Below, piece after piece: positions 7,060 to 13,492 of a stretch of 64,000 nt of DNA; position 1 is the stretch's first letter; each line of letters opens with the position of its first letter. The position numbers and the translations under genes are program-made. Source of the stretch: Herbidospora sakaeratensis (GTDB lineage Bacteria; Actinomycetota; Actinomycetes; Streptosporangiales; Streptosporangiaceae); the NCBI RefSeq assembly GCF_001570525.1, contig NZ_BBXC01000007.1, positions 547,364-611,363 of the forward strand. The letters run 5' to 3'. The notes beneath the pieces were generated by a model, which did no database searches, was not told the DNA's origin, and was given only the letters and a program-made list of their open reading frames with translations.

Positions 7060-7383
7060 ATGCGTTACCTGATGCTGAGCCTGGCCGACGAGAACACCCC
7101 CGCCCCCGACGAGAGGCTGTTCGCCGAAATGGGCGCGTTCATCGAGGAGATGAGCGCCAAGGGCATCCTGCTGGCCACCGGCGGCCTGGAGCCCGGCGGG
7201 CTGCGGATGACCTCCTCGGGGGAGGAGTTCACCGTCACCGACGGGCCGTTCACCGAGGCCAAGGAGGTCGCGGTCGGCTTCGCCCTGGTCGAGGTGCGGT
7301 CGGAGGACGAGGTGCTGGAACTGGCCCGGCGCTTCCGCCGGATCGTCGGCGACGGGGTCAGTGAGATCCGCAGAGTCCAGTGA
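7060..7383 (+). CDS. YciI/DGPF domain protein, ECF42 partner
   Basis: A 107-residue single-domain protein with the signature TVTDGPFTEAKEVAVGFALVEV, giving the DGPF motif after a beta strand; it starts MRYLMLSLADENTPAPDE. The fold is a small ferredoxin-like alpha/beta dimer. DGPF/YCII genes are the conserved neighbours of group ECF42 sigma factors (established for that group in Streptomyces), and here the stop overlaps the sigma GTG (GTGA), so the two are co-translated. The biochemical role of DGPF proteins is unsettled. An AGAC-GAGATG-type ribosome site (GGAGACCGAG) precedes the ATG closely. Confidence 0.92.
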   Translation: MRYLMLSLADENTPAPDERLFAEMGAFIEEMSAKGILLATGGLEPGGLRMTSSGEEFTVTDGPFTEAKEVAVGFALVEVRSEDEVLELARRFRRIVGDGVSEIRRVQ

Positions 7384-9266
7384 TCGACGCCGTCTGGAGG
7401 CTGGAGTCCGCGAAGATCGTCGCCGCGCTGACCCGGCTGGTCGGCGACGTCGGCCTGGCCGAGGAGTTCTCCCAGGACGCCCTGGTCGCGGCGATGGAGC
7501 AGTGGCCCGCCGAGGGCATGCCCGGCAACCCCGGCGCCTGGCTGATGTCCGTGGCCAGGCGCCGGGCGATCGACCACATCCGGGCCGAGCGGCGGCACGA
7601 CCGCACCCACGAGCAACTGGCCCACGACCTGCGCCACGACGACGACGACCACGAGCACGACCGGGACGACACGCTGCGGCTGATGTTCCTGTCGTGCCAC
7701 CCGGTGCTGCCGCCTCCGGCGCGGGTCGCGCTCACGCTGAAACTGCTCGGCGGGCTGAGCACCGCGGAGATCGCCCGCGCCTTCCTCACCGGCGAGCAGG
7801 TGATCGCCCGGCGGATCGCCGACGCCAAGCGCACGCTCGCGGAGCACCGGGTGGGCTTCGACCTGCCCGGCCCCGACGAGGCGGCCGACCGGCTCGCCTC
7901 GGTGCTGGAGGTCGTCTACCTGATCTTCAACGAGGGGTACGCGGCCGCCTCCGGCGACGACCTGATGCGCCCCGGCCTCACCCTGGACGCGCTGCGCCTC
8001 GGCGGCATGCTGGCCGAGGCGGCCCCGCGGCCGGAGGTGTGGGGCCTGCTGGCCCTGATGGAGATCCAGGCCTCCCGGGCCGACGCCCGCACCGGCCCGT
8101 CGGGCGAGCCGATCCCGCTGCACGAGCAGAACCGGGGCCGCTGGGACCGGCTCCGCATCCGCCGGGGCTTCGCCGCCATGTTGCGGGCCAGGGAACTCGG
8201 CGGGCCGCCCGGTCCCTACCTGCTGCAGGCCGCCATCGCGGTCTGCCACGCCCAGGCGCCGACGGCCGAGGAGACCGACTGGGACCGGATCGTGTCCCTC
8301 TACGAGCTGCTCGTCCGGCTGACCCCGACCCCGGTCGTGCGGCTCAACCGGGCGGTGGCCGTCGGCATGGCGCGCGGCCCGCAGGCGGGTCTCGACCGGA
8401 CCGACGACCTGACCGCCGACCCGGCGCTGCGGAACTACCACCTGCTCCCGGCGGTCCGGGCCGACCTGCTGCTGCGCCTGGGCCGCGCCGAACCGGCCCG
8501 GCGCGAGTTCCTGCGGGCGGCGGCGCTGGCCGACAACGCCGCCGAACGGGCCTTCCTGGAACGCCGCGCCGCCGACCTCCCGGCCGAGGAGCCCACCGGA
8601 GCGACGCTCGGCCCGGCCGTGGCCGAATTCCTGGCCGGGCTCGCCGGCCCGACGGCGCGCTCCTACGGCCAGACGCTGAAGCGGCTGCGCACGGCCCTCG
8701 GCGAGCAGACCCCGGTGGCCGAGCCGGCCCCCGCCGAGGTGGCCCGGGTGGCGACGGCGGCCTGGCACGGCACGGCGGCCCGGACCTGGAACCGGCACGT
8801 GGCGGCGCTGCGCTCCTTCTTCACCTGGGCCGGCCGGCCCGAGCTGGTCGCCGAGCTCACCCGGCGGCCCGAGCCCCCGCCGGAGCCCCGGCCGGCCGCG
8901 CCGGCGTGGCGCGACACGGAGGCCGCCCTGCGGGAGCGGGCCCTGTGGTGGCTGCTGCGCGAGTCGGCCGCCCCGGTGACCCGGGTGCTGGCCCTCAACG
9001 TGGAGGACCTCGACCTGGCGGACCGCCGCTCCCGTACCGGGATCACCTGGCGCTCCCGGACGGCCGCGCTACTCCCCGACCTGATCGGCGACCGCACCCG
9101 GGGCCCGCTGTTCCTCTCGGGACGCCGCCCCGCGCCCGCCCGCGCCCCCGCCGAGAGTGACCGGTGCCCTCACACGGGCCGCCGCCGGCTCTCTTACGAG
9201 CGTGCCGAGCGCCTGTTCAAACTGGCCACCGGCCACACCCTGTCTGACCTGAAAAGTCAGGACTAA
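7380..9266 (+). CDS. ECF42 sigma factor fused to a degenerate tyrosine-recombinase domain
   Basis: A 628-residue protein. Residues 1-400 are a complete ECF42-type sigma factor: region 2 (GLAEEFSQDALVAAMEQWP, PGAWLMSVARRRAIDHIR), region 4 (LTLKLLGGLSTAEIARAFL), the DUF6596 block (LASVLEVVYLIFNEGYAA) and a TPR-like extension typical of the group. Residues about 410-628 are unlike any ECF42 tail I know. AVAEFLAGLAGPTARSYGQTL and HVAALRSFFTWAGR look like the core-binding domain of a tyrosine integrase, and VLALNVEDLDLADRRSR, RTRGPLFLSGR and TGRRRLSYERAERLF like its catalytic domain. The catalytic Arg after AA is replaced (AAPVTRVLAL), and the protein stops at TLSDLKSQD, exactly where the LRHS box should start, so His, second Arg and Tyr are absent. 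Recombinase activity is not expected. Confidence 0.87.
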   Translation: MIDAVWRLESAKIVAALTRLVGDVGLAEEFSQDALVAAMEQWPAEGMPGNPGAWLMSVARRRAIDHIRAERRHDRTHEQLAHDLRHDDDDHEHDRDDTLRLMFLSCHPVLPPPARVALTLKLLGGLSTAEIARAFLTGEQVIARRIADAKRTLAEHRVGFDLPGPDEAADRLASVLEVVYLIFNEGYAAASGDDLMRPGLTLDALRLGGMLAEAAPRPEVWGLLALMEIQASRADARTGPSGEPIPLHEQNRGRWDRLRIRRGFAAMLRARELGGPPGPYLLQAAIAVCHAQAPTAEETDWDRIVSLYELLVRLTPTPVVRLNRAVAVGMARGPQAGLDRTDDLTADPALRNYHLLPAVRADLLLRLGRAEPARREFLRAAALADNAAERAFLERRAADLPAEEPTGATLGPAVAEFLAGLAGPTARSYGQTLKRLRTALGEQTPVAEPAPAEVARVATAAWHGTAARTWNRHVAALRSFFTWAGRPELVAELTRRPEPPPEPRPAAPAWRDTEAALRERALWWLLRESAAPVTRVLALNVEDLDLADRRSRTGITWRSRTAALLPDLIGDRTRGPLFLSGRRPAPARAPAESDRCPHTGRRRLSYERAERLFKLATGHTLSDLKSQD

Positions 9267-9333: not shown

Positions 9334-9777
9334 ATGCTGGTCGGCGACGTCATGACGGCGTTCCCGGCGCACATCCGGCTCGGTTCGACCATCAGACGGG
9401 CGGCCGAAGTGGTGAGCGTCTCCGAGGTCGGGCAACTCATGGTCATCGACCATGACGGCAGGTTCGCCGGGTCGTTGTCCGAAGAGGATCTGGTGCGGGC
9501 CATGCTGCCCGGCTTCGACGACGTGACCGCCGGTGGCGGCACCCTCGCCGACGCGTTCCGGATCTTCCTGGAGAAGGGCCGCGCCCTCGCCGACCGGGTC
9601 ATCGACCCGCTCGTCGTGCGCGACACGGCCACCGTGAGCCCGGCCGACGAACTGGCCAGGGCCGCGATCGTGATGATCGAGCGCGGGATCCGGAGGCTTC
9701 CCGTCGTCGATGGGGGGAATCTCGTGGGCACGCTCTCCCGCGCCGACCTGTGCCGTGCGGTGATCTACCATTCCTGA
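9334..9777 (+). CDS. CBS-domain pair protein
   Basis: A 147-residue protein of two CBS motifs. The first is at about residues 1-65 (VGDVMTAFPAHIRLGSTIRRAAEVV, MVIDHDGRFAGSLSEEDLVRA). The second is at about 85-145 (VIDPLVVRDTATVSPADELARAAIVMIERGIRRLPVVDGGNLVGTLSRADL). Tandem CBS pairs (Bateman module) bind adenine nucleotides and regulate partner proteins. GGGGAGG lies 11 nt before the ATG. The next gene begins within or just after its 3' end, so the CBS protein is probably co-expressed with, and may regulate, the large FHA-dioxygenase-reductase fusion. The ligand is unknown. Confidence 0.9.
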   Translation: MLVGDVMTAFPAHIRLGSTIRRAAEVVSVSEVGQLMVIDHDGRFAGSLSEEDLVRAMLPGFDDVTAGGGTLADAFRIFLEKGRALADRVIDPLVVRDTATVSPADELARAAIVMIERGIRRLPVVDGGNLVGTLSRADLCRAVIYHS

Positions 9778-9826
9778 GCTGCGGCTGACCCTCACCGACC
9801 GGCACACCAAGGCGACCAGCCAGCGG

Positions 9827-12800
9827 GTGTGCACCCTGCCGGTCACCCTCGGCCGCGACGCCGGCGCGGCGGCCGTGGTGCTCGACGACGGCGCCGTCTC
9901 CCGGCGGCACGCCCGGCTCGAATGGGACGACGGCCAGCTGGCCCTCACCGACCTCGGCAGCTCCAACGGCACGTTCGTCAACGACACGAAGATCACCCGG
10001 CACGTGCTCCGCGCGGGCGACCGCGTCCGCATCGGCCGCTACGAGGTGACGTGGGCGTTCGTCGACCCTGACCGGACCACCACCCTCGACGCCGGCCAGC
10101 TGACCATGCTGCGCCCGGTCGGGCCGCCCCGCGTCGCCGCCCGCCGGGTGGTCGAGGGGGCCGAGGCGTTCAACCGGCGGGCCGGGCACGAGCTCGACGG
10201 GTTCCTGTCGTTCGCCCACGGATTCCTGCCCGCCGAGCCGCCGCTGCTCGCCTTCCCCGATTCCCATCGCGCCTGGGACGAGATGACCGCGCGGTTGCCC
10301 GAGTTGTTCCGGCGGTTGTCGCTGCGGCGGGCCTTCGACGCGATGCCGGTGCTCGACGCCCGGCCCGAGGCGCTGCCCGACCGCTACCTGCTGCGCGCCT
10401 CGACGATGCTCGGCGTGTTCGCGCACGCCTACCAGTACATGGCCGTCGACCCGCCGAAGGCGCTGCCCGACTCCCTGCTGCGGCCCTGGACGACGGTCTC
10501 GCGGCGGCTGGGCAAGAAGACGCCCGCCGTGTCGTACATCGACCTGTTCTTCTACAACTGGCGGCTGCGCGACCCGGCCGGGCCCAGGGTCCTCGACAAC
10601 ATGGACCTGCTCGTGCCGACCTGGGACAACGCGGCCGAACGTGTCTTCTACCTGGTCACCACCGAGTTCGCGATGGGGCTCACGCCGGTGCTCGGCGCGA
10701 TGGTCGAGGCGCAGGAGGCCGTCGTCGCCGACGACCCGGCCGCTCTGGAGCGTTCCCTCCTGGTCATCCTCGACCGGCTCCGGTACGTCACCCAGGTCGT
10801 CTATCCGCAGATCGACCCCAACCCGCGCGGCCGCAGCCCGCTCGACCAGGTGCTCTGGGCCAAGACGGTCGGCACGGCCGGCGTCCCGATCTTCGACGGC
10901 GCGCCCAGCCCGAGCGGCACCGCCCAGCCGCAGGTGCACGCGATCGACGCCTTCCTCGAACGCCGCGACTTCGGCTCGATGGTGGGGCAGCAGAGCACCT
11001 ACCTGGCCGGCTTCTTCCCCCGGCACTGGAAGGAGCTGGTCGCCGCGCTCCGCGAGGTGTCGGTCCGCCAGTACGTCGAGGACACCCGCGACAGCACCCT
11101 GCGCGGCGTCTACAACGCGATGCTCGACGCCTACGTGGGTGACCGGGGCTGGATGGGGCTGCACCGCATCAAGGCGTACGGCTTCCTGGAGGTCGCCTTC
11201 AAGGTCGGCCGCCAGGTGACCACCGGCGCCCGCTTCACCGGCCTGTTCAAGGACCGGACCTGGGACAAGGTCGACGGCGAACTGGCCGTCGTCCGGGAGG
11301 AGCGCCGCCCGCCGGTCGGCGCGCCGGTGGTGTTCGGCACCGCCCGCCGGGGCCGCGTGGTCACCGGCGACGCGGGCTCCTGGACGTGCTACCTCGACCT
11401 CGACGTCACCGGGCAGGGCGTGCACCACCTGCCGGGCGACCGGGTCGGCGTGCTGGCCGAGAACGACGACGACCTGGTGCGCCGCACCGTCGCGGCGCTC
11501 CAGGCGACCGGCGACGAACTGGTGCCGCTCACCCCCGAGTGGCGCACGGCGGTGGCCGGCCGGGCCGGGTTCGGCGAGGCCGACGTGCTGCCGCTGCGCA
11601 CCCTGCTGCGCTTCGCCCGCCTGCGGCCCATCGGCCGCGAGGTGGCCAAACGGCTGATCAGACTGACGGCCGTGGGAGCCTGGCAACGCGTCGTGGACGC
11701 CCGCATGGAAGACCAGTGGGAGCTCTGGGACGTCCTGAACCTGCTGTACGCGGGCGGCTACGACGTCACCCGGATGTGGAAGGCCGACCTGCGGGAGAAG
11801 GACGCCCTCTGCCGGGTGGTGCCGCCCGAGCCGTTCCGCCTCTACTCGATCGCCTCGGCCCCGCCGCCCGGCGAGGCGGCCACCACGTTGCGGCTGGTGG
11901 TCGCCGGTCTCGGCTACACCTCGGCCCGCACCCCGTGGTCCTACCCCCGGGAACGGCGCGGCACGGCCTCCCACTTCCTGCGCCGCGCCGCCCAGGAGGG
12001 CCGCCGCCAGTTGTCGTTGAAGATCGTGCCGACGCCGAGGTTCCGGCTGCCCGCCGACCCCTCCCGGCCGGTCGTGATGTTCGCGGCCGGTTCCGGCATC
12101 GCGCCGTTCCTCGGCTTCGCCGCCGCCCGCACCGGGCCGGGGGAGAACCGGCTCTACCTGGGGATCCGGTCGCCGGAGGAGTTCGTCCACCACCCCGATC
12201 TGGAGACCGCGGCGGCCGAGGGCCGCCTGCGGTTGTCGGTGGCGTTCAGCCGCGCCGACGCCGGCGTCACGTTCGACGGCGCCCGGCACGTCGTCGGGGC
12301 CGGCCGCCGCCGCCGGGTCGACGACGTGATCCGCGCCGAGGCCGACGACCTGTGGGCGCTGCTGGAGCGCGGCGCCCACGTCTACGTGTGCGGCAGCGCG
12401 CGCTTCGCCGTGGCCGTGCTCGACGCGCTGGCCGGGATCGTGCCCGGCGACGGCCGCGAGTTCCTGCGGCGGCTGACCGCCGACGGGCGGCTGAGCCAGG
12501 ACGTCTTCACCACCTACCTGGGCCACGCGCAGCAGGGCCCCCGCTTCGACGTGTCGGAGCTGGCCCGGCACACCACGCCCGAGGCGGGCTACTGGATGGC
12601 CATCGGCGGAGCCGTCTTCGACGTCGGTGAGTTCCTCCACCTGCACATCGGCGGGCCGCACATCGTCCGCAACCACGTCGGGCTCGACGCGACGGCGGCG
12701 TACCGGAAGATCCTGCACCACGCCCACGCCGAGATCGACGCGCAGCTCGCCATGTACCAGATCGGCCACCTGCGCCGGCTGGAGTTCGGCGCGAAGTGGG

Positions 12801-13492
12801 GGGTGGTGCTCACCGAGGAGGGGCTGCGGGCGCTGCCGCTGGAGGAGCTGTTCCGGACCTGGGTCCGGTTCGTCTACCTGCTGGTCGGCATGGAGAACGC
12901 GCTGACCGCCGACTACGCCTTCACCACCATGGCCGCCACGGCGGGCGAGAACCCCGGCGAGCTGACGCCGTTCAAGGCGCAGTTCGTCGTCGAGGCCCAC
13001 CGGCGGTTCCTGGTCAGCTACCTCGACGGCCTGCTCGGCGACGACCTGCGCACCCTGTGGCAGCTCACCGCCGGGTTCTGCGACCCCCATCTGGACCTGC
13101 GCTCCTACGACGCCGACCTGGCGGCGCTGGCGGCCCGCCCCGAGACCACGCTGGTCACGACCACGGTGTCGGCCGTGCGCGACCTCGACTTCCCGAGCGT
13201 GGCGACGCTCTGCCGCGCCTACGCCCACCACGACGTCCGGCTGCTGCGCGACCTGAAGGCCGCGATCCTCGACGGCCTGCGGGCCTTCGAGGTCCACGAG
13301 GCCGACGTCGTCGAGCGGGCGGGCGCGACGCTGCTGGGCGCGGTCGGCGAGGCCCTCGGCGCGGTCGCCGCCTACTACCGGCGGCTGGCCGACCTGACCC
13401 GCGCCCAGGGCGTCACCGCCGACGACGCCGCCGAACAGCCGATCCCGCCCGACCGGGGCATCCCCGGCCACGGCGGCCCGCTGCCCGTCTGA
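9827..13492 (+). CDS. FHA / indoleamine 2,3-dioxygenase-like / flavin reductase / cytochrome b5 fusion protein
   Basis: 1,221 residues from GTG 9827. Residues 1-77: FHA phosphothreonine-binding domain (SRRHARLEW, LGSSNGTFVND). About 110-475: indoleamine 2,3-dioxygenase fold. LLRPWTTVSRRLGKKTPAV followed by SYIDLFFYNWRLRDP aligns from memory with the human IDO segment ending NWKKKDP, and H446 in GLHRIKAYGF matches the proximal haem His. About 500-895: FAD/NAD(P)H reductase of the cytochrome P450 reductase type without an FMN domain (RLYSIAS 671-677, AAGSGIAPFLGF 753-764, VYVCGSARFA). About 905-990: cytochrome b5-like, with FLHLHIGG (H940) and DATAAYRKILHHAH. The last 230 residues are helical and unrecognised. 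The frame is open back to 9764 and PELRLTLTD upstream belongs to the first FHA strand, so translation may start at ATT 9770 or CTG 9779. It is probably cytosolic; the substrate is unproven. Confidence 0.85.
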   Translation: MCTLPVTLGRDAGAAAVVLDDGAVSRRHARLEWDDGQLALTDLGSSNGTFVNDTKITRHVLRAGDRVRIGRYEVTWAFVDPDRTTTLDAGQLTMLRPVGPPRVAARRVVEGAEAFNRRAGHELDGFLSFAHGFLPAEPPLLAFPDSHRAWDEMTARLPELFRRLSLRRAFDAMPVLDARPEALPDRYLLRASTMLGVFAHAYQYMAVDPPKALPDSLLRPWTTVSRRLGKKTPAVSYIDLFFYNWRLRDPAGPRVLDNMDLLVPTWDNAAERVFYLVTTEFAMGLTPVLGAMVEAQEAVVADDPAALERSLLVILDRLRYVTQVVYPQIDPNPRGRSPLDQVLWAKTVGTAGVPIFDGAPSPSGTAQPQVHAIDAFLERRDFGSMVGQQSTYLAGFFPRHWKELVAALREVSVRQYVEDTRDSTLRGVYNAMLDAYVGDRGWMGLHRIKAYGFLEVAFKVGRQVTTGARFTGLFKDRTWDKVDGELAVVREERRPPVGAPVVFGTARRGRVVTGDAGSWTCYLDLDVTGQGVHHLPGDRVGVLAENDDDLVRRTVAALQATGDELVPLTPEWRTAVAGRAGFGEADVLPLRTLLRFARLRPIGREVAKRLIRLTAVGAWQRVVDARMEDQWELWDVLNLLYAGGYDVTRMWKADLREKDALCRVVPPEPFRLYSIASAPPPGEAATTLRLVVAGLGYTSARTPWSYPRERRGTASHFLRRAAQEGRRQLSLKIVPTPRFRLPADPSRPVVMFAAGSGIAPFLGFAAARTGPGENRLYLGIRSPEEFVHHPDLETAAAEGRLRLSVAFSRADAGVTFDGARHVVGAGRRRRVDDVIRAEADDLWALLERGAHVYVCGSARFAVAVLDALAGIVPGDGREFLRRLTADGRLSQDVFTTYLGHAQQGPRFDVSELARHTTPEAGYWMAIGGAVFDVGEFLHLHIGGPHIVRNHVGLDATAAYRKILHHAHAEIDAQLAMYQIGHLRRLEFGAKWGVVLTEEGLRALPLEELFRTWVRFVYLLVGMENALTADYAFTTMAATAGENPGELTPFKAQFVVEAHRRFLVSYLDGLLGDDLRTLWQLTAGFCDPHLDLRSYDADLAALAARPETTLVTTTVSAVRDLDFPSVATLCRAYAHHDVRLLRDLKAAILDGLRAFEVHEADVVERAGATLLGAVGEALGAVAAYYRRLADLTRAQGVTADDAAEQPIPPDRGIPGHGGPLPV

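Follow-up and report, generated by a model that had tools for sequence, protein, structure and literature searches.

Enzymes that carry a haem oxygenase domain and its reductase in one chain are known from the BM3-type P450s and nitric oxide synthase, whose reductase is of the cytochrome P450 reductase (CPR) type, and flavohaemoglobin likewise joins a haem domain to an FAD/NAD(P)H module. CPR itself has an FMN domain. For human IDO1, one report describes reduction and activity in vitro with CPR, with or without cytochrome b5 (b5), and the reduction system that sustains the enzyme in vivo as still unclear (PMC13142367). Such partners do not always suffice among the haem-dependent aromatic oxygenases, as neither b5 nor CPR led to any product with the superfamily member PrnB (PMC11791213).

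Here we describe a single chain, encoded in a window of 64,000 nucleotides from Herbidospora sakaeratensis (by the window we mean this whole stretch of DNA), that brings such parts together. With IDO1, IDO2 and the haem-dependent aromatic oxygenases (IDO, TDO, PrnB, MarE) it shares a fold over 358 residues, the proximal His and Pfam family PF01231; unlike IDO1 and IDO2 it has Gly or Ala for the carboxylate Arg and an altered GTGG loop, and it adds a reductase of its own, a b5 domain, an FHA domain and a C-terminal bundle. Its redox parts are of the same kinds as the CPR and b5 of the human IDO1 reduction chain (PMC13142367), but the human CPR and b5 are separate proteins whereas here they lie in one chain. 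Compared with the BM3-type P450s and nitric oxide synthase, the haem domain is a His-ligated IDO fold, and b5 would occupy the electron-relay position of an FMN domain; compared with flavohaemoglobin, the protein has an IDO-fold haem domain and an extra b5, FHA domain and bundle. A weak NCBIfam match to flavohaemoglobin covers the reductase part only and falls below the cut-off, and no globin family is among the Pfam matches of the window chain. With diflavin reductases (CPR/CysJ) the protein has in common the FAD/NADPH module, the connecting region and the RxYS motif, whereas an FMN domain was not found.

The fusion shows that evolution joined an IDO fold, b5 and a P450-reductase-type module, and a natural protein of this kind makes the question of IDO1 reduction addressable in a single molecule. 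We consider it probable, with considerable room for doubt, that the window protein is a self-sufficient, signal-gated oxygenase of the IDO/TDO superfamily whose substrate is probably not tryptophan.

Domain layout of the fused protein

The open frame runs over positions 9764-13489 of the forward strand (1,242 codons) with its stop codon at 13490-13492, and residues are numbered here from S1 at 9764; counted from the probable ATT start discussed below, the coding sequence (9770..13492, +) yields 1,240 aa. Pfam places on this chain an FHA domain (residues 27-91, 1.8e-19), IDO (PF01231; 151-346, 6.9e-28), FAD_binding_1 (541-589, 1.3e-4, at 22.1 bits below the curated cut-off of 32.3), NAD_binding_1 (772-885, 5.4e-7) and Cyt-b5 (931-1003, 3e-12), and its relatives among PDB sequences are CysJ (2.2e-23), a BM3-type reductase (8.6e-23), IDO2 (6.2e-15) and IDO1 (6e-11). 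The earlier note's claim that FHA, IDO, FAD/NADPH reductase and b5 parts lie in one chain is therefore borne out by Pfam, NCBIfam and PDB matches within a single open frame; what its list omitted is the C-terminal helical bundle (about residues 1026-1214).

For comparison we aligned 39 proteins, comprising the window chain, 36 loci among the matches listed in a collection scan (see below) and the loci L072 and L073. Pfam finds IDO and b5 in all 39, NAD_binding_1 in 36, FAD_binding_1 in 32, FHA in 28 and a cNMP-binding domain in one. The FHA domain of the window (9842..10036, +) has GR, S46, H49 and N68, and R31, S46 and N68 are found in 28 aligned rows, the window chain included; GR, S and N are what we take to be the phosphothreonine-site residues of the family, whose partner is phosphothreonine. 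The phosphopeptide module proposed to stand in front of the chain thus has its site residues intact.

A chance frame or an assembly fusion was ruled out by full-length homologues in 18 further genomes of the host family and in three phyla.

Alignments point to an altered substrate pocket in the IDO-fold domain

Given an alignment (A3) of 21 IDO-type domains, AlphaFold2 models the IDO part (residues 110-513; 10091..11302, +) with a mean pLDDT of 83.5. Among solved structures, VIA superposes this model best on IDO2 (9uz5) with Z 35.6 (rmsd 2.7, 358 residues, 24% identity) and on IDO1 with Z about 33-34, Foldseek gives it an E of 2e-11, and the profile of the IDO part finds IDO2 (3e-32) and IDO1 (9e-30) among PDB sequences. 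The earlier note had made its reading depend on an IDO/TDO fold for residues 110-475, and the model resembles IDO1 and IDO2 at Z about 33-36. H467 (11162..11164, +), which occupies the same alignment position as the canonical IDO His and is invariant in 39/39 aligned proteins, is the predicted proximal haem ligand.

Around this haem, the alignments suggest that the pocket of fused-type proteins differs from that of tryptophan dioxygenases. Column 370 of the joint alignment, which we take to be the sequence place of IDO1 Arg231, holds Gly or Ala in 21/21 fused-type domains and Arg in 7/7 canonical bacterial IDOs (L040-L045 and L074; an eighth canonical row, L075, was left out). Across columns 358-376, Arg appears in 0/39 rows, and a profile alignment, which shifts this stretch by a few columns, is again without Arg. 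The exact sequence GTGG, presumably the JK-loop motif of tryptophan/indoleamine dioxygenases, is likewise found in 0/39 rows, which keep an invariant Thr486 (39/39) and read TTGA (27), TLGG (4), TIGG (2) or similar; the canonical IDO ORFs in this comparison were chosen partly for holding GTGG. In IDO1, Arg231 touches the substrate carboxylate (PMC12921851). The substrate may nonetheless be anionic, given the invariant Thr486 and a lysine, K367, that lies near the lost Arg in 37/39 rows. H221 (38/39 rows) may lie near the distal side of the haem.

In a tree built from 31 IDO domains, 23 fused-type rows and eight canonical bacterial IDOs fall on opposite sides of a split supported at 100/100; the branches on either side of it are long, and a long-branch warning also applies inside the tree. 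L109 and L110, two loci that lack the reductase, are among the 23 fused-type rows. On a different contig the host genome carries a single tryptophan 2,3-dioxygenase match, and a search of the genome for a second IDO found none. The identity as an indoleamine or tryptophan dioxygenase, which the earlier note had proposed, is not supported, given the Gly/Ala in the Arg column (21/21), the exact GTGG in 0/39, the separate branch and the genome's own TDO.

Reductase module, cytochrome b5 domain and C-terminal bundle

By NCBIfam and PDB matches, residues from about 528 to 915 group with CysJ, P450 reductase and BM3-type reductases, every NCBIfam row falling below its cut-off and the PDB matches extending over 541-915 (1ddg, 2.2e-23; BM3 reductase, 8.6e-23). 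We annotate them as an FAD/NADPH reductase module of the CPR/CysJ type (residues 528-915; 11345..12508, +), which carries RxYS, presumably the flavin motif of such reductases, in 37/39 rows, the remaining two being without the module. The CysJ models of NCBIfam match the window chain only from residue 528 on, and no FMN (flavodoxin) family is among the Pfam matches of the window chain and the 39 aligned proteins. Residue R830, which follows S829 of the NADPH motif, is replaced by something other than Arg in 4/37 rows, which makes NADPH, rather than NADH, likely but not certain.

The b5 domain (residues 931-1003; 12554..12772, +; Pfam 3e-12) is recognised by Pfam in 39/39 proteins, and its two predicted haem ligands H961 (12644..12646, +) and H985 (12716..12718, +) are both invariant (39/39), pointing to a haem domain of the bis-His type. 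The histidines singled out earlier, the proximal haem ligand and a b5 ligand, are thus invariant in all 39 proteins; they were named H446 and H940, which fits a count from a GTG at 9827, and with S1 at 9764 they become H467 and H961.

Beyond b5, AlphaFold2 models the C-terminal region (residues 995-1242; 12746..13489, +) with a pLDDT of 86.4 as a helical bundle (helices 1026-1214) preceded by a two-strand lead-in. This region has no Pfam match and no PDB sequence match lower than E 0.48, and its model has no Foldseek match at E<=0.001, the best VIA Z of 7.0 being within chance for helical bundles. The bundle can be aligned next to b5 in the 21 rows of alignment A2, most weakly in L109 (23%) and L110 (26%). 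A b5-bundle query of 101 genomes returned matches in five, of which four are fused genes and the fifth (G730) is weak, covers 64 residues and contains a stop. Our guess is that the bundle docks a partner or b5.

Distribution of the fused architecture

Querying the host family with the IDO domain gave matches in 25 of 341 genomes and 11 of 68 genera. Nineteen of the family genomes, the host's own included, have a close copy of the fused gene, among them 6/7 genomes of its own genus, and the copies in the 18 further genomes are full-length and 77-97% identical; the remaining six matching genomes carry short, canonical-type IDOs. Of 396 genomes sampled evenly across the phylum, four match, comprising the host's own, two of the fused type (G500 and G522) and one with a short IDO (G057). 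The fused type is patchily distributed. A genome of another genus in the family (G033) retains no more than a fragment with 82% identity to residues 487-778 (L076:8716-9975, -), which is apparently a decayed copy.

When a five-row alignment was used to query the collection's named genome contigs, at least 36 loci were recovered. Those among the matches listed fall in Herbidospora, Microbispora, Microtetraspora, Streptosporangium, Catellatospora, Dactylosporangium, Paractinoplanes, Pseudonocardia, Actinomycetospora, Streptomyces and others, and include four Chloroflexota loci and two Pseudomonadota MAGs, with Actinomycetota among the rest. The survey of homologues for conserved domain order that had been proposed for this protein finds the order IDO, reductase, b5, bundle in 34/36 loci among the matches listed, the exceptions being L109 and L110, which are without the reductase. 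L072 and L073 have the same order, L122 and L123 match over the same span, and L071 (genome G005) likewise is without the reductase.

Six peptide patterns had no match in viral_contigs, which is weak evidence against a viral origin. Among plasmids, 92 records match and 0 cover 80% of the query, and the 15 of these 92 matches that were listed all lie within residues 384-956, chiefly in the reductase.

Neighbouring genes and regulatory partners

Directly upstream of the fused gene, and overlapping the start of its chain by 8 nt, lies a gene for a CBS-pair protein of 147 aa (9334..9777, +; Pfam CBS in two stretches, 7.1e-21), a member of a family of the adenine-nucleotide type. The earlier note had remarked on a CBS protein beside the gene, and a CBS-pair homologue indeed stands directly upstream in 32/36 loci among the matches listed, as well as in L072, L073, L122 and L123; a search near L101, L107, L109, L110 and L071 found none. 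The CBS gene is part of a conserved unit with the fused gene. A CBS protein has been proposed as the modulator of a redox system in plants, where CBSX is paired with thioredoxin (PMC7921703), a target other than the fused protein proposed here.

Further regulatory parts occur elsewhere. A RidA-family gene, a receiver-like-CBS gene and the IDO-reductase-b5 gene follow one another in L098, L099, L100, L111, L072 and L123, where the receiver-like part forms the N-terminal portion of the CBS protein. Of the receiver matches, that of L099 alone exceeds the curated cut-off (31.3 vs 30.2 bits), those of L098 and L111 fall short of it, and L072 has none listed at 1e-6. Chloroflexota share this row of genes with two genomes from the phylum to which the window belongs. 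The fused chain of a Pseudomonadota MAG (isolate Deltapro3; L102:1746-6143, +) bears two cNMP-binding stretches at its C-terminal end, a cyclase-FHA gene lies upstream of the fused gene in L097, and in L093 a Ser/Thr kinase gene follows directly, about 12 nt downstream, which makes control by such a kinase plausible. These FHA, CBS, receiver-like and cNMP parts suggest gating by phosphorylation or nucleotides.

Other neighbours are metabolic. An acyl-CoA ligase gene lies about 3 nt downstream in L073 and is also found in L122, of the same genus. Polyketide synthase genes occur within 7 kb of the reductase-less L110 and L071, which argues for catalysis, with HpaB and FAD monooxygenase genes also within 7 kb of L110, and an RPE65-type gene is near L109. 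The IDO-b5-bundle proteins of L110 and L071 are possible new tailoring oxygenases.

Upstream in the window, a 628-aa ORF (7380-9266, +) encodes an ECF sigma factor (Sigma70_r2, r4_2, DUF6596) that ends in a tyrosine-recombinase-like stretch (Phage_int_SAM_1, 4e-7). Three of the 36 loci listed (L077, L078 and L095) match it over almost its entire length, and together with three other window neighbours it has relatives in one to four of these loci. With the exception of the CBS gene the neighbours are lineage-specific, and none was used for naming a substrate.

A proposed reaction scheme and its alternatives

From the fold, ligands, domain order and co-location computed above, we infer an electron path, an O2 chemistry and a mode of control. 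NADPH would reduce the FAD module, which would pass electrons one by one to the bis-His b5 haem; b5 would then bring the IDO-fold haem from its ferric to its ferrous state and might reduce the oxy form as well. The ferrous haem would bind O2 and oxygenate a small substrate without the carboxylate-Arg anchor of the tryptophan type. The CBS-pair neighbour would set when the enzyme runs, and in many members FHA, a receiver-like part or cNMP-binding domains would also set the timing. Taken together, a pocket unlike the canonical one, cousins in biosynthetic surroundings and a dedicated electron supply point to an oxygenase for some other small substrate. Against this scheme, b5 may serve an outside partner.

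A reading nearer to the canonical enzymes would make the protein a tryptophan or indoleamine 2,3-dioxygenase whose NADPH-FAD-b5 chain keeps the haem ferrous, with N-formylkynurenine or an indole cleavage product as its product. The IDO Pfam match and fold are in keeping with this, b5 and CPR are reductants of IDO1 in vitro (PMC13142367), and T486 is invariant (39/39); moreover, K367 (37/39) could replace the lost Arg, and the RidA neighbours of six loci could process enamine products. We nevertheless hold it unlikely, since column 370 is Gly or Ala in 21/21 fused-type domains against Arg in 7/7 canonical ones, with no Arg over 358-376 in 39 rows, since Arg231 makes the carboxylate contact in IDO1 (PMC12921851), and since the genome already has a TDO.

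We weighed two further possibilities. An analogue of flavohaemoglobin, with an IDO-fold haem in place of the globin and a reductase that returns the haem to its ferrous state so that it can dioxygenate NO or remove O2, would follow the same logic of haem domain and FAD/NADPH module in one chain; its regulatory parts would suit a stress enzyme, and H221 (38/39) is placed by the alignment perhaps near the distal side. The polyketide synthase surroundings of the cousins and the acyl-CoA ligase by L073 and L122, seen in a partial neighbour scan, suggest metabolite chemistry instead, and NO or O2 handling appears rather improbable to us. Less probable still is a redox or gas sensor whose haems and flavin report the state of NADPH, O2 or a ligand to CBS, FHA and kinase partners without any oxygenation: a full reductase and a b5 with invariant ligands would be costly for a sensor, and the reductase-less versions sit in biosynthetic surroundings, even though FHA domains (28/39), the CBS neighbour, receiver-like and cNMP modules and the altered canonical substrate residues would all accord with sensing.

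Should the fused protein be catalytic, as we favour, the haem-dependent aromatic oxygenase superfamily would gain a self-sufficient member useful as a biocatalyst, and bacteria would have an oxygenase tied to phospho- and nucleotide signalling. Among titles and abstract openings, a coverage that leaves out most subscription journals, we found no paper on an IDO-reductase-b5 or FHA-IDO protein, and within this literature the fused protein is a variant IDO-fold haem oxygenase not described before. The wider proposal, that multi-phylum self-sufficient IDO-fold oxygenases with non-tryptophan substrates, gating by CBS, FHA, receiver or cyclic-nucleotide parts, and reductase-less offshoots in polyketide clusters make up a previously undescribed class, strikes us as evenly balanced.

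The gene probably starts at ATT within the CBS gene

The frame earlier assigned to 9764-13492 stands but its start does not, as the codon at 9764 comes directly behind an in-frame TGA (9761-9763) and is no start codon. Between this TGA and the GTG at 9827 the frame is without ATG, GTG or TTG, the protein sequence is conserved 5' of this GTG, and the stretch upstream of 9827 would be required for the first FHA strand, judging by FHA topology. Judging from the aligned sequences, the fused gene probably begins at a rare ATT (AUU; 9770..9772, +) inside the end of the CBS gene. At the aligned start position of the 28 FHA-bearing proteins, ATT is present in 24 and ATG in three (L093, L094 and L106), while L097 differs. 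An extended Shine-Dalgarno-like GGTGATC (9759..9765, +), read from the sequence and presumably complementary to the 3' end of 16S, lies ahead of the ATT in the window and at suitable spacing before 23/24 ATT starts, L108 having GGTGATT. In the CBS frame that overlaps here, the ATT spans a CAT codon, and CAT makes up 83 of the 1,004 His codons across the 28 FHA-member genes; that so rare a codon is kept constant suggests selection for ATT, with the reservation that the rows are related to one another.

The overlap of the CBS stop with the FHA frame also prompted us to consider a CBS-FHA frameshift fusion. This is made less likely by the ATG that L093, L094 and L106 carry precisely at the ATT position and by the variation of the base preceding the CBS stop. 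The conserved AUU start offers a separate test case for initiation at a non-canonical codon.
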